From assembly GCF_027923555.1 (NCBI RefSeq), contig NZ_AP025523.1, forward strand, positions 1,740,484-1,804,483: 64,000 nucleotides of DNA, in the 5' to 3' direction. Origin of the DNA: Vulcanimicrobium alpinum. Its GTDB lineage: Bacteria > Vulcanimicrobiota > Vulcanimicrobiia > Vulcanimicrobiales > Vulcanimicrobiaceae. Shown in pieces: positions 42,554 to 47,125 of this stretch. Position 1 is the stretch's first letter, and each line of letters starts with the position of its first letter. Position numbers and translations under genes: made by a program. Below the pieces are notes generated by a model, which did not search any database, was not told the DNA's origin, and worked only from the letters and a program-made list of their open reading frames with translations.

Positions 42554-43006
42554 TCACGCCGTGGCGCTCAGCCGCGACTTGACGTTCGCGAACGTCGTCG
42601 TGATCACGCGCTTCGCCTGCGCGTCGAGGACGCGGCCGCCGACGGTCGCGACCGGTCCGCGCATCGTCGCGGTCCCCTGCCAATCGAGGATCGTTCCGCC
42701 CGCCGGATCGTCGCTGACCTCGGCGCTCGCCGGAAGATCGACCACGCTGCCGAAGCCGCCGCCGGAGATCGTCATCCCCATGTGCGACGCGTCGTCGCTG
42801 GGCGCCAGCGTCACCTTGAACGTGAACTTCCCCTTCACCGGTCCGACCGCGACCCGCACCACGACCTCGAAGGCGTGCGGGCCGCGGATCGTCGTCGAGA
42901 TCACGTCGGGCATGCACGACGCGATCGCCTCCGGATCGTTGATGAACGCCCATACGGTCGCGCGCGGTGCGGGGATCCGTTCGCGTCCCTGAAAGGTCAG
43001 GTTCAC
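42554..43006 (-). CDS. coxG: CoxG-like SRPBCC protein
   Basis: 150 aa CO dehydrogenase subunit G family (START-like fold). Typical pieces: FQGRERIPAPRATVWAFINDPEAI, SCMPDV, GPVKGKFTFKVTL and GTATMRGPVATVGGRVL. CoxG anchors aerobic CO dehydrogenase to the membrane and, in recent work on the family, may carry quinones. This is the only undamaged gene of the cox locus. GTG start overlaps the chimeric CoxM-CoxL stop as GTGA. Confidence 0.9.
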   Translation of the reverse strand: MNLTFQGRERIPAPRATVWAFINDPEAIASCMPDVISTTIRGPHAFEVVVRVAVGPVKGKFTFKVTLAPSDDASHMGMTISGGGFGSVVDLPASAEVSDDPAGGTILDWQGTATMRGPVATVGGRVLDAQAKRVITTTFANVKSRLSATA

Positions 43007-43728
43007 CGCGCCGCCCGCTGCATCGCAGTCCAGAGTTTCTCGCGGGTGAGCGGCATGTCGACGTGGGCGATCCCGAGCGGAGCGAGCGCGTCCATCACCG
43101 CGTTGACGAACGCCGCCGGCGAGCCGACGTTGGGGCTCTCCCCGACACCCTTCGCGCCGATCGGATGATGCGGGCTCGGCGTCACCGTGCTGCACGTCTC
43201 CCAGTGCGGCGTCTCGAGCGACGTCGGCACCAGATACTCGGTGAAGTTGGTGTTGAGATTGTTCCCGCTCTCGTCGTAGCGGATCTCCTGCATGAACGCG
43301 ATCGCGAACCCTTCGGTAAGGCCGCCGTGGATCTGGCCTTCGACGACGAGCGGGTTGATCACGGTGCCGCAGTCGTCAATCGCGAGGAACCGTTTGACCT
43401 CGACCGCGCCGGTCTGGGGGTCGACTTCGACGACGGCGACGTACGCACCGTAGGGGAACGTCAAGTTCGGTGGATCGTAGTAGTAGACGGCCTCGAGACC
43501 CGGCTCGTTCTCGCCCGGATTCGTGTACGCCGCGAACGCGACTCCCTGCATCGTCACGGCGATTTCCGGAACGCCCTTGATGCGGAACTTGTAGGCGCTC
43601 CGCTCGACGTCGTCTTCCGACGCTTCGAGCAGGTGCGCGGCGAGCTTGCCACCGGCGTGCTGCTGCAGTAGCGCGATCGCTTCGTCGAGCGAACTCGCGC
43701 GCCGGTAATCGAAAGCGACAGGGAACAC
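43003..43728 (-). pseudogene. CoxM-CoxL deletion chimera (aerobic CO dehydrogenase relic)
   Basis: 241-aa open frame from GTG 43728, preceded by GGAGA. Residues 1-28 (FPVAFDYRRASSLDEAIALL) are the N-terminus of the FAD subunit CoxM. From about residue 29 (KLAAHLLEASEDD) it is the C-terminal quarter of the molybdenum subunit CoxL (FAAYTNPGENEPGLEAVYYY, DDCGTVINPLVVEGQIHGGL, SPHHPIGAKGVGESP). The rest of CoxM, all of CoxS and the first two thirds of CoxL with the active-site loop are gone. Cannot be a functional CO dehydrogenase. Ribosome-binding site and start survive, so it may be translated. Confidence 0.85.
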
Positions 43729-43792
43729 CGCCGGCTCTCCCGTGGAATCGCGTCGGGGAGACGGACCTACCGGGAGCCGGAAGAACCTTCCT

Positions 43793-44518
43793 TCAACTCG
43801 CGCTGCGTCGTGCGTGCCCCTCGCGTTCGACCACGCCGAGCGCGGCGAGAATTGCGGCGCGTGTCGCATCCGCACCAACGGCACCGGTGAACGCGATCTC
43901 GGCAGGCGAGCCCGCCAGCACGATCACCCGGTCGGCGAGCGCCAGCGCGTCCTCGACGTCGTGGGTCACCAAGATCGCCGACGCACGCGTGAACTCGAGG
44001 ATCTCGCGCACTGCCGTTCGCAGTTCGATCCTCCGCAGCGCGTCGAGCGCGGCGAACGGTTCGTCGAGGAGCAGCAGGCTCGGATCGCGGACGAGGGCGC
44101 GCGCGAGCGCCGCGCGCTGCGCCATCCCGCCCGAGAGTTCTTTGGGCAGACGCTTCGCCGCGTTCGCGAGCCCGACCAGGCCCAGCACGTCGGCAACGCG
44201 CGCGCGCTCGTGCGCGTCGCGCGCGCCGAACCCGACGTTGCACGCGACGTCGAGCCACGGGAAGAGCCGCGGCTCCTGAAACACCACGCCGATCTCGCCC
44301 GAGGTGACGATCGTGCCGGCATCGGGACGTTCGAGACCGGCGATGCAGCGCAGCAGCGTGGACTTGCCGCAGCCGCTCGCGCCGAGGATCGCGAGACGTT
44401 CGCCGCACGCGACGTCGAGGTCGAGATCGTCGAGGACGAGGTGCGCGCCGAACGCTTTGCGCAGCCCGCGCACGCGCGCCGCGGCGTCCGCCGTGCCCCG
44501 CCGTGCCGCCGCCGTCAT
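43793..44518 (-). CDS. ssuB: nitrate/sulfonate/taurine-type ABC transporter ATPase
   Basis: 241 aa. Walker A LGASGCGKST, Q-loop VVFQEPRLFPWL, signature LSGGMAQRAALARAL, Walker B LLLLDEPFAALD and LVTHDVEDALALADRV. SsuB/TauB/NrtD class. Overlaps the permease by ATGA. The three genes form one operon under the leader described upstream. Confidence 0.9.
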   Translation of the reverse strand: MTAAARRGTADAAARVRGLRKAFGAHLVLDDLDLDVACGERLAILGASGCGKSTLLRCIAGLERPDAGTIVTSGEIGVVFQEPRLFPWLDVACNVGFGARDAHERARVADVLGLVGLANAAKRLPKELSGGMAQRAALARALVRDPSLLLLDEPFAALDALRRIELRTAVREILEFTRASAILVTHDVEDALALADRVIVLAGSPAEIAFTGAVGADATRAAILAALGVVEREGHARRSAS

Positions 44519-45258
44519 GCCGGCACCGTGTCGGTCCAGCCGACGAGACGCCGCTCGAGCAGGCGCATCGCGCCCTCCGAGAGTTTCCCGCAGACGGCGA
44601 ACAGGAGGATCGCGACGATGATCTCGTCGGTGCGCGACGTCTGCTGCCCGTCGGTGAGCAGAAAGCCGAGCCCGCTGGTCGCAGCGAGCAATTCGGCGGC
44701 GACCAGGAAGAGCCACGCCTGCGTGAGCCCGATGCGCGCGCCGACGAGCAATTGCGGCAGCGTCGCGGGGACAAGAACGCGCGCTATCAGCGCGCCGCGC
44801 GAGAGACCGAACGCCGCGCCGACCTCGACCAGCTTGCGATCGACGCCCCGAATCCCGCTGACGAGCGCGACGTAGATCGGAAAGAACGCGCCGATCGCGA
44901 CGAGCACGATCTTCGCGGTCTCGCCGATCCCCAGCCACAGCAGGATCAGCGGGACCCATGCCAGCGACGGCACCGCGCGGATGCCCTGCAGCGTGGGGTC
45001 GAGGATGCGCTCCGCCGACCGCGATCCGCCGACGAGCGCACCCGCGACGAGCGCGAGCGCCAGCGCGATCGCGAAACCGAGCGCGACGCGTTCGACGCTC
45101 GCGCCGAGGTCGCGCAGAAGCGCGCCGCTCTGCGCGAGATCGGCGAGCTCGCGCACGACGTCGGCGGGCGACGAGAGTTGATACGGCTTGATCGCACCGC
45201 TCGCGGTCACCGCGAACCACGCCGCGAGGAGCGCGAGCGGCAGCGCGAACCTAGCCAT
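44515..45258 (-). CDS. ssuC: nitrate/sulfonate/taurine-type ABC transporter permease
   Basis: 247 aa with about six membrane segments. The EAA-type coupling loop (EVGAAFGLSRGALIARVLVPATLPQLLVGARIGL) and PSLAWVPLILLWLGIGETAKI are typical of SsuC/TauC. Starts within the last 8 bases of the binding-protein gene. Confidence 0.9.
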   Translation of the reverse strand: MARFALPLALLAAWFAVTASGAIKPYQLSSPADVVRELADLAQSGALLRDLGASVERVALGFAIALALALVAGALVGGSRSAERILDPTLQGIRAVPSLAWVPLILLWLGIGETAKIVLVAIGAFFPIYVALVSGIRGVDRKLVEVGAAFGLSRGALIARVLVPATLPQLLVGARIGLTQAWLFLVAAELLAATSGLGFLLTDGQQTSRTDEIIVAILLFAVCGKLSEGAMRLLERRLVGWTDTVPA

Positions 45259-46246
45259 GCAGCGCCGTCGCCGCGAGACGGCCGTCCGCCAGCGACGCGA
45301 GCGCGCCGTCGAGGTCGGCGTCGGCGCGCGCGAGTTTGTCGGCGCGGATCAGCGGGACCACGGCGGCGATCGCCTCGTGATAGTCGTTCCCAGGCGTGCC
45401 GTTCCCGGGATACGTCGTGCGCTCGCGCAGCTGCAGGTCGGCGACGCGCCGTTCGAGATGCGACGCCTCGGCGAGCAGCGCCGCGGTTTCATCGACGTGC
45501 GCCGCGGCGTACTGACGCGCGCGTTCGTACTGCGCGAGTACGATCGCCGCGATATCGCCATGCTGGGCGAGGAAGTCTTCCCGCACGTTGAGCGCGCCCC
45601 ACGTGTTGAACGCGACGTTGCGGTAGAGCAGTCGCGAGCCCGCTTCGAGCTGTGACGCCGCCATGTGCGGGTCGAGACCGGCCCACGCATCGACCTGGCC
45701 GCGCTCGAGTGCGGTGCGGCCGTCGGGATGCTGCAGGTCGACGAGCTGGACGTCGGCGGGCTGCAAGCCGTTCGCGGCGAGCGAGCGCAGCAGGAAGAAC
45801 CACGGATCGGTGCCGCGCGTCGCCGCGACCTTCTTCCCCTTCAAGTCGCGGACCGATTTGAGCGGCGAGTCCTTGGCGACGACGAGCGCCGTCCATTCGG
45901 GCCGCGAGTAGAGAAAGACCGTCTTGATCGGCGTGCCGTTGGCGCGCGCGAGCAGCGCCGCGCTGCCGGCGGTCGACCCGAACTGCACGGCGCCGGCGGC
46001 GAGGTAGCCGTTGGCCTTGTTCGAGCCGAGCGAGAGCACCCAGTCGACCGCGATCTTGTTTTTTGCGAGCGCTTCGTCGAGCCAACCCTTCTGCTTGAGG
46101 ACGAGACTGGGTGGATTGTAGTACGCGTAGTCGACGCCGATGCGGTCGATGCCGGCGGCGCGCACGACGCGCGGGAAGGCTGCGGCGGCCGACGCGCCGG
46201 CCGCGGCGGTGAGGAAACGAGATCGAGAGAGCGAGAACGAGGACAT
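45251..46246 (-). CDS. ssuA: aliphatic sulfonate-type ABC substrate-binding protein
   Basis: 331 aa. ATG 46246 with AGGAGG upstream; twin-arginine-like export signal SRSRFLTAAAGASAAAAFPRV. SsuA-type fold: DYAYYNPPSLVLKQKGWL, GSTAGSAALLARANGTPIKTV, LKSVRDLKGKKVAATRGTDPW and LERGQVDAWAGLDP. A sulfur-source ligand is supported by the cysteine-codon leader upstream; nitrate or taurine are alternatives by fold alone. Confidence 0.9.
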   Translation of the reverse strand: MSSFSLSRSRFLTAAAGASAAAAFPRVVRAAGIDRIGVDYAYYNPPSLVLKQKGWLDEALAKNKIAVDWVLSLGSNKANGYLAAGAVQFGSTAGSAALLARANGTPIKTVFLYSRPEWTALVVAKDSPLKSVRDLKGKKVAATRGTDPWFFLLRSLAANGLQPADVQLVDLQHPDGRTALERGQVDAWAGLDPHMAASQLEAGSRLLYRNVAFNTWGALNVREDFLAQHGDIAAIVLAQYERARQYAAAHVDETAALLAEASHLERRVADLQLRERTTYPGNGTPGNDYHEAIAAVVPLIRADKLARADADLDGALASLADGRLAATALHG

Positions 46247-46280
46247 GGGTGACGCCTCCTGATGCGATGGGAAAGCGGTG

Positions 46281-46315
46281 AAAAACAAGAGCCCCCGCCG
46301 GTCGGCGAGGGCTCT
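46281..46315 (-). terminator. intrinsic terminator in the ssuA leader (attenuator)
   Basis: On the minus strand AGAGCCCTCGCC pairs with GGCGGGGGCTCT around a GACC loop (12-base stem, one G-T pair; 46315-46288), followed by TGTTTTT (46287-46281). It lies between the promoter/leader peptide and ssuA, so it should stop transcription unless an alternative fold forms. No T-tract follows it on the plus strand. Confidence 0.75.
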
Positions 46316-46354
46316 GCACGGTGTCGCGCGCTGCGCGATCAGCTCATGCCGATC

Positions 46355-46393
46355 CTAGCCGACTCCCGGGCGGGGGAGACAGCACATGCACAT
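46355..46393 (-). CDS. cysteine-rich leader peptide (12 aa)
   Basis: ATG at 46393 encodes MCMCCLPRPGVG then TAG: three Cys codons among the first five, about 30 bases after the predicted transcript start. No strong Shine-Dalgarno precedes it. The sequence CTCCC...GGGAG overlaps codons 6-11. GTCGGC (last two sense codons) can pair with GCCGAC in the upstream arm of the terminator, giving the exclusive folds expected of ribosome-mediated attenuation. Inference: ribosomes stalling for Cys-tRNA would favour the 2:3 pairing and read-through into ssuA. Too short for ordinary gene finding. Confidence 0.6.
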   Translation of the reverse strand: MCMCCLPRPGVG

Positions 46394-46431
46394 CGCGAGA
46401 AACGACGCGGCATTCGGCATAAAGTGGGCCG

Positions 46432-46461
46432 GTTATACCACGCGGCGCCGCACGCGGTCAA
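46432..46461 (-). promoter_or_regulatory. predicted strong sigma70-type promoter of the leader-ssuACB operon
   Basis: TTGACC (46461-46456), 18-base spacer, TATAAC (46437-46432) on the minus strand; start of transcription near 46425. The best promoter match in the window. It lies 22 bases after the pdxH stop, so the transporter is independent of the upstream operon. Confidence 0.65.
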
Positions 46462-46483: not shown

Positions 46484-47125
46484 TCACGGTGCAAGGCGGG
46501 CGATCGTCCAGCCGTCGGCGACGCGCTCGTAGGCGACCCGGTCGTGGACGCGATTCGGCCGGCCCTGCCAGAACTCGAACCGGTCGGGGACGACGCGATA
46601 GCCGCCCCAGTGCGGCGGCCGCGGAACGTCGCCCGCGAAGCGCGCCTCCGCTTCTGCCATCGCAGCCTCGAGCGCGTCTTTTCCGCTGACGACGCGGCTC
46701 TGCGGCGAGGCCCAGGCGCTCAGCCGGTGGCCGCGGGGGCGGGTCGCGAAGTACGCGTCGCTCTCGGCGTTGTCGACGCGCTCGACGCGCCCCTCGATCC
46801 GGATCTGCCGCTCGAGTGCGCCCCACCAGAACAGCAGCGCCGCGGCGGGTCGGTGCGCGAGCTCGCCGCCCTTGCGGCTTTCGTAGTTGGTGTAGAACAC
46901 GAACCCGCGGCCGTCCCATTGCCGCAGCAGCACGATCCGCGACGACGGACGCCCCTCATCGCCGACGGTCGCGAGGCTCATCGCGTTGGGCTCGACGATC
47001 CCCGGCATCGCGAGCGCCTCGCTCAGCCACGCGTCGAACTGCGCGAACGGGTCCGCAGACACGGTCCCCTCGTCGAGCATGCCGCGTTCGTAGGACAAGC
47101 GGCGGGTCAGCAGATCGTCGTTCAC
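46484..47125 (-). CDS. pdxH: pyridoxamine 5'-phosphate oxidase
   Basis: 213 aa. FMN-dependent oxidase making pyridoxal phosphate. Opening [29 protein letters not shown] segments [50 protein letters not shown], and the C-terminal [19 protein letters not shown] (Arg-Leu-Pro-like end RLAP). GTG 47125 with GAAGGGAG upstream. Confidence 0.96.

Follow-up and report, generated by a model that had tools for sequence, protein, structure and literature searches.

A conserved cysteine-codon leader and putative transcription attenuator ahead of a sulfonate-type transporter operon in Candidatus Eremiobacterota

The ssuACB operon of the window, the 64,000-nt stretch of DNA analyzed here, is very probably controlled by a ribosome-mediated transcription attenuator of the classical trp type, which would sense the charging of Cys-tRNA. 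Comparison with related genomes shows a conserved predicted leader, a conserved intrinsic terminator, two mutually exclusive pairings that covary, and specificity for sulfur genes. An earlier note on this DNA had proposed an attenuator from the letters of the window, and the comparative evidence described below supports that interpretation.

Layout of the ssu leader

The features of the locus are collected in Table 1. Three genes in the order ssuA-ssuC-ssuB, of which ssuA begins with an ATG at 46246, follow a short Met/Cys-containing ORF and a terminator hairpin, with a gap of 39 nt between the leader stop and the terminator. Segment 3 of the proposed antiterminator is the loop-side portion of the terminator 5' arm, and hairpin 1:2 takes in the last Cys codons and is able to mask the antiterminator strand.

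Table 1. Features of the ssu locus and the basis on which each was assigned.
Feature	Position	Strand	Basis
-35 element TTGACC	46456..46461	(-)	sequence; TTGAC kept in nearly all orthologs
-10 element TATAAC, 18-nt spacer from -35	46432..46437	(-)	sequence; -10-like hexamer in orthologs
Leader ORF MPNAASFLAMCMCCLPRPGVG*, predicted to be nearly leaderless, own Shine-Dalgarno site absent	46355..46420	(-)	start position and Cys/Met cluster conserved, 15/17 ssuA orthologs
Met/Cys cluster ATG TGC ATG TGC TGT, candidate control codons	46379..46393	(-)	sequence, orthologs, codon counts
Cys codons of leader	46390-46388, 46384-46382, 46381-46379	(-)	sequence
Leader stop TAG	46357-46355	(-)	sequence
Hairpin 1:2 (GCUG U CUCCC ... 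GGGAG U CGGC)	46358..46384	(-)	MFE fold; inner-helix covariation
CTCCC / GGGAG pairing	46378-46374 / 46367-46363	(-)	sequence
Antiterminator 5' strand GTCGGC (segment 2)	46358..46363	(-)	pairs with segment 3; covariation, duplex test
Antiterminator 3' strand GCCGAC (segment 3)	46301..46306	(-)	duplex test, covariation
Intrinsic terminator, 12-bp stem, 4-nt loop	46288..46315	(-)	sequence; conserved in orthologs
T-tract TGTTTTTC	46280..46287	(-)	sequence
ssuA Shine-Dalgarno AGGAGG	46255..46260	(-)	sequence; conserved
ssuA, aliphatic-sulfonate-type substrate-binding protein	45251..46246	(-)	NCBIfam TIGR01728 E 7.5e-64, above curated cut-off; Pfam NMT1
ssuC-like permease, overlapping ssuA end	44515..45258	(-)	best NCBIfam model SsuC, below cut-off; BPD_transp_1
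ssuB-like ATPase, overlapping ssuC end	43793..44518	(-)	ABC_tran; several sulfonate/phosphonate models, all below cut-off

The near-consensus promoter claimed in the earlier note is present; judged by eye, its two hexamers agree with the consensus at 10 of 12 bases. An automatic promoter scan missed it because its -10 element ends in C. The Cys-codon ORF proposed there is likewise real and lies in the same frame, but its length of 12 codons did not hold, since the start had been placed 27 nt too far downstream, at 46393. The frame is open up to an in-frame ATG at 46420, which is most likely the start of a predicted leader of 21 codons with Cys at positions 11, 13, and 14. This ATG lies 11 nt past the -10 box, and in the relatives' leaders inspected the start falls 6-11 nt past a -10-like box (spacing counted by eye), too close for a Shine-Dalgarno site to fit between them. 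Further downstream, the 12-bp terminator hairpin with its T-tract and the AGGAGG site of ssuA are all found where they had been described. When the region was simulated with an order-1 Markov model, a Cys-cluster uORF arose in 0.07% of the copies and a comparable terminator in 0 of 20,000.

A separate observation concerns an ORF at 43003-43884 (-), the start of which resembles the medium subunit of CO dehydrogenase (FPVAFDYRRASSLDEAIALLQQ) and which then passes straight into sequence from the large subunit's C-terminal portion (TIGR02416 positions 562-769). It looks as if an internal deletion had joined remnants of a cox cluster.

Conservation and competing helices

Searches with SsuA place the genome among Candidatus Eremiobacterota/WPS-2, and yielded a set of 17 clear ssuA orthologs with 60-100% protein identity. 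The earlier note had named conservation of the Cys codons and the terminator in such loci as a point on which its reading could fail; when this was tested, 15 of the 17 orthologs retained both, together with a promoter-like start and the Shine-Dalgarno site, in identical order (leader examples are MPNQYCLMAMCICCLPSRDRRASA, MLLIATICRMCMCRSISSRRGAA, MTCRPMAMCMAMCCTPRCR, and MSNLHIMCHMCPVPAPDRRRLASRISK). The genes upstream of the leader vary between orthologs, so the element is to be assigned to ssuA, not to pdxH. Across 10 representatives, Cys occurs 28 times in the leaders against 1.4 expected, a count that includes cys-operon leaders that had been found by their Cys clusters. The two exceptions are G073, which belongs to another family and has neither leader nor terminator, and G025 (L013), in which a promoter and a terminator lie upstream of ssuA, the Cys ORF is absent, and the leader is possibly a decayed attenuator. 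G038 has kept the leader and terminator but lacks a good 2:3 pairing, and a CC leader with a terminator is also found at a more remote substrate-binding gene (G054, L025). NCBIfam holds no model for these leader peptides. A look-alike of the terminator elsewhere in the genome (L002) stands behind a small ORF, without a Cys leader, and was set aside as an ordinary terminator.

Three helices compete in a trp-like manner: helix 1:2, which joins the Cys-codon region and CTCCC with GGGAG and CGGC; helix 2:3, which joins GTCGGC and its neighbors with the terminator 5' arm; and helix 3:4, the terminator itself. Both pairings pointed out in the earlier note, CTCCC/GGGAG and GTCGGC/GCCGAC, are present in the window, and both competing helices covary among relatives. 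The pair counts are based on a manual alignment of the helix segments, as MAFFT did not align the two most divergent leaders correctly. Such an alignment is biased in favor of the proposed register, and slid and shuffled controls are therefore quoted. For helix 2:3, 80.8% of cells were paired, compared with 18-44% after sliding by 1-3 columns, and both sides had changed in 5 of 10 pairs, with a covariation score reached by none of 500 shuffles. The inner helix of 1:2 was 92.5% paired, with both sides changed in all five of its pairs (0/500 shuffles). In addition, leader and terminator segments from the same lineage form better duplexes than lineage-swapped ones (p 0.02). The window's 2:3 duplex has only 6 strong pairs, plus 3 past a mismatch, and its GTCGGC/GCCGAC duplex alone is no better than shuffled sequences (p about 0.26); support for it comes from the relatives.

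Plain MFE folding is uninformative here, since for an unmasked leader at equilibrium the complete terminator is almost always the favored structure; truncated and ribosome-masked ensembles were used instead. In all 12 leaders tested, segment 3 pairs upstream if a ribosome masks the cluster's first Cys codon and downstream, within the terminator, if the ribosome is placed on the stop codon (second terminator arm only partly exposed in both cases). In the window, with the terminator exposed in full, a ribosome at Cys 11 lets the antiterminator persist, whereas one at Cys 14 does not; with a ribosome on the last Cys codon and a complete terminator, equilibrium folding prefers the terminator in most species, the window included. 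The switch would thus depend on co-transcriptional timing.

We infer where transcription starts, that the leader is translated, that ribosomes stall when Cys-tRNA is uncharged, and in which direction the operon responds. RNA polymerase would initiate just ahead of the leader ORF, and a ribosome would load on the nearly leaderless start codon and trail the polymerase closely. Where charged Cys-tRNA is ample, the ribosome would reach the stop codon beside GTCGGC and cover that strand, the terminator would form, and ssuA would go untranscribed. Where charged Cys-tRNA is scarce, the ribosome would stall at the Cys cluster and open hairpin 1:2, and GTCGGC and its neighbors could then capture the terminator 5' arm, allowing transcription to run into ssuA.

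Other explanations fare less well. Mycobacterial Cys-rich leaderless uORFs before sulfur genes have been described as translation attenuation (PMC13236596), and the leader here is likewise predicted to be nearly leaderless, yet control in this style, with the Cys uORF governing access to the ssuA ribosome-binding site and not termination, seems improbable: between leader and ssuA stands a strong intrinsic terminator with a T-tract, itself the partner of a covarying antiterminator strand, and in 9 of 11 leaders no pairing forms between the leader ORF and the ssuA Shine-Dalgarno site. We give still less weight to the idea that the hairpin is a plain pdxH terminator followed by a constitutive ssu promoter, with the Cys ORF incidental. 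The pdxH gene does end at 46484 on the same strand, merely 63 nt ahead of the leader start, but the promoter lies upstream of the terminator, leader and terminator accompany ssuA also in loci without pdxH, conservation extends to both helices and to the Cys and Met codons, and a like leader stands ahead of two other sulfur operons. Equally hard to credit is a riboswitch or other RNA family, as a structured 5' leader with a terminator might suggest; searches with Rfam 15 gave no match at gathering score in the window, nor for the leaders in the related loci searched (weak matches only, with E above 0.1), and conservation is centered on codons and attenuator helices.

Methionine codons, sister leaders, and a sulfur regulon

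Two features of the system went unseen in the earlier note, namely the Met codons of the leader and two sister leaders in the same genome. The former raise the possibility, a tentative one, that Met codons among the Cys codons also stall ribosomes and that ssuA answers to both Met-tRNA and Cys-tRNA, which would extend the attenuator reading. Met accounts for 8.9% of leader residues other than the start and occurs 17 times in the 10 lineage representatives against 1.8 expected (p 5e-12), having played no part in finding the leaders; in 6 leaders, 10 Met codons are in frame, compared with 1 and 0 in the other frames. A similar stretch, CMCRRMC, is found in the Streptomyces metNIQ leader (PMC8079986). 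Against dual sensing, internal Met is absent from two ssuA-type leaders (G038 and G054) and from the genome's own cysH leader, one recurrent Met codon lies inside the pairing segment CTCATGG/GGCATGAG and may serve RNA structure, and it is the Cys codons that form the constant part of the leaders.

The two further leaders have the same layout and precede cysH-cysDNC and a NIR_SIR gene. The cysH leader (MISLAVRACASCLRIDPDTA; C1, about 51.1 kb) is followed by cysH, a transporter-like gene, cysD, and cysNC; the other (MLLCCCLLMACPASVARRSASS; C1, about 3331.2 kb) stands before a gene with NIR_SIR domains, of the sulfite/nitrite-reductase family, which may encode a sulfite reductase. A pattern drawn from the three leaders finds exactly these three in the genome, a single contig of 3.5 Mb, and none in a reversed control, a result that indicates rarity and not independent discovery, given that the pattern was built from its own matches. 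A looser pattern (TGYTGY ... CGCCG ... CGGCGG) was discarded, having as many matches as its reversed control; the genome may hold further leaders. Cys leaders ahead of NIR_SIR or cysH operons also occur in the relatives G005, G010, G015, G023, and G028. No convincing leader was seen before cysK, cysS, or the other NMT1 genes scanned, and such a leader is absent from the cysS loci of 11 genomes of the genus.

The putatively regulated genes all fit the cognate sulfur pathway, and ssuACB, cysH-cysDNC, and the NIR_SIR gene would together constitute a small sulfur-assimilation regulon. It is tempting to speculate, though we regard this as rather less than probable, that the regulon extends across the phylum, with nearly leaderless Met/Cys leaders reading both tRNA chargings and jointly setting sulfonate uptake and the reduction of sulfate and sulfite through intrinsic termination, without a dedicated protein regulator.

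A different element was noticed in relatives (L122-L125 and L129), where a conserved stretch, TTGCCGGGACA..CAGCCCACTGTCC...GCCCCGG...CCGGGGC, lies upstream of cysD-like, PAPS-reductase-family genes. It was rejected as a Cys leader, and no Rfam match at gathering score was found in the five loci searched.

Relation to known systems

Attenuation by Cys codons is a known mechanism; it is the member described here and its combination of features that appear to be new. The nearest parallel is the uORFC-8-2 motif, a cysS leader of Rhodobacterales with Cys codons and a terminator, for which ribosome-mediated transcription attenuation has been proposed (PMC8632094). Both systems have tandem Cys codons near positions 14-15, Cys codons inside the first stem, and an intrinsic terminator. 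The motif is, however, confined to cysS in Alphaproteobacteria, whereas the present leaders belong to Eremiobacterota and to sulfonate uptake and sulfate assimilation, with no cysS leader found, and have a start that is probably nearly leaderless and Met codons in the cluster. The trp, his, and leu attenuators share the control codons, the hairpins 1:2, 2:3, and 3:4, and a stop codon beside segment 2, but here the amino acid would be cysteine, possibly with methionine, and there would be almost no 5' UTR ahead of the leader ORF.

Among Actinobacteria, Seliverstov et al. (2005; PMC1262725) described short ORFs with runs of Cys codons ahead of cys operons and cbs, and that comparison saw no conserved terminator or alternative hairpins in Actinobacteria/mycobacteria; the leader here shares the Cys-codon ORF but differs in having both. 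The leaderless polycysteine sORFs known from mycobacteria (Canestrari et al., 2020), as far as the papers citing them as translation attenuation describe them (PMC9094748, PMC13236596), are Cys-rich uORFs before several sulfur-assimilation operons per genome, and the leaders here resemble them in these respects and in a start that is probably nearly leaderless. Translation attenuation is what those accounts describe, in contrast to the strong intrinsic terminator and covarying antiterminator found here. The Streptomyces lividans metNIQ leader, leaderless and with mixed Met and Cys codons, is annotated as methionine-dependent (PMC8079986); like the present leader it is a Met/Cys peptide before a sulfur-compound transporter, but a typical terminator is absent there. 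A genome survey of 2010 reported an uncharacterized attenuator ahead of a sulfonate transporter operon (PMC2965389), and our literature search, which took in few subscription papers, found no description of a Cys attenuator for sulfonate transporters or in Eremiobacterota.

Other leader-like elements were observed ahead of SsuA-family genes. In Thermomicrobium and the hot-spring bins HR26 and HR27 (L038, L040, L045), a conserved Cys leader-like ORF (...VGVFAFWPRICECPRSA; ...IGVFSFWPRICDCTLCCPTPR) apparently lacks an intrinsic terminator, and is possibly a Chloroflexota version of Cys sensing. In Roseilinea (L054) and a Bacillota bin (L096), there are look-alikes of SAM-I (S-box) riboswitches, which we regard as putative.

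The leader provides a testable account of how sulfur acquisition may be controlled in a barely studied phylum of soil bacteria, and it would extend Cys-codon attenuation to organosulfonate uptake, beyond cysS and the mycobacterial cys operons. With its intrinsic terminator, its mixed Met/Cys codons, and a uORF that is probably nearly leaderless, it connects the versions known from mycobacteria and proteobacteria, and suggests that sensing of cysteine by the ribosome is widespread or has arisen repeatedly.
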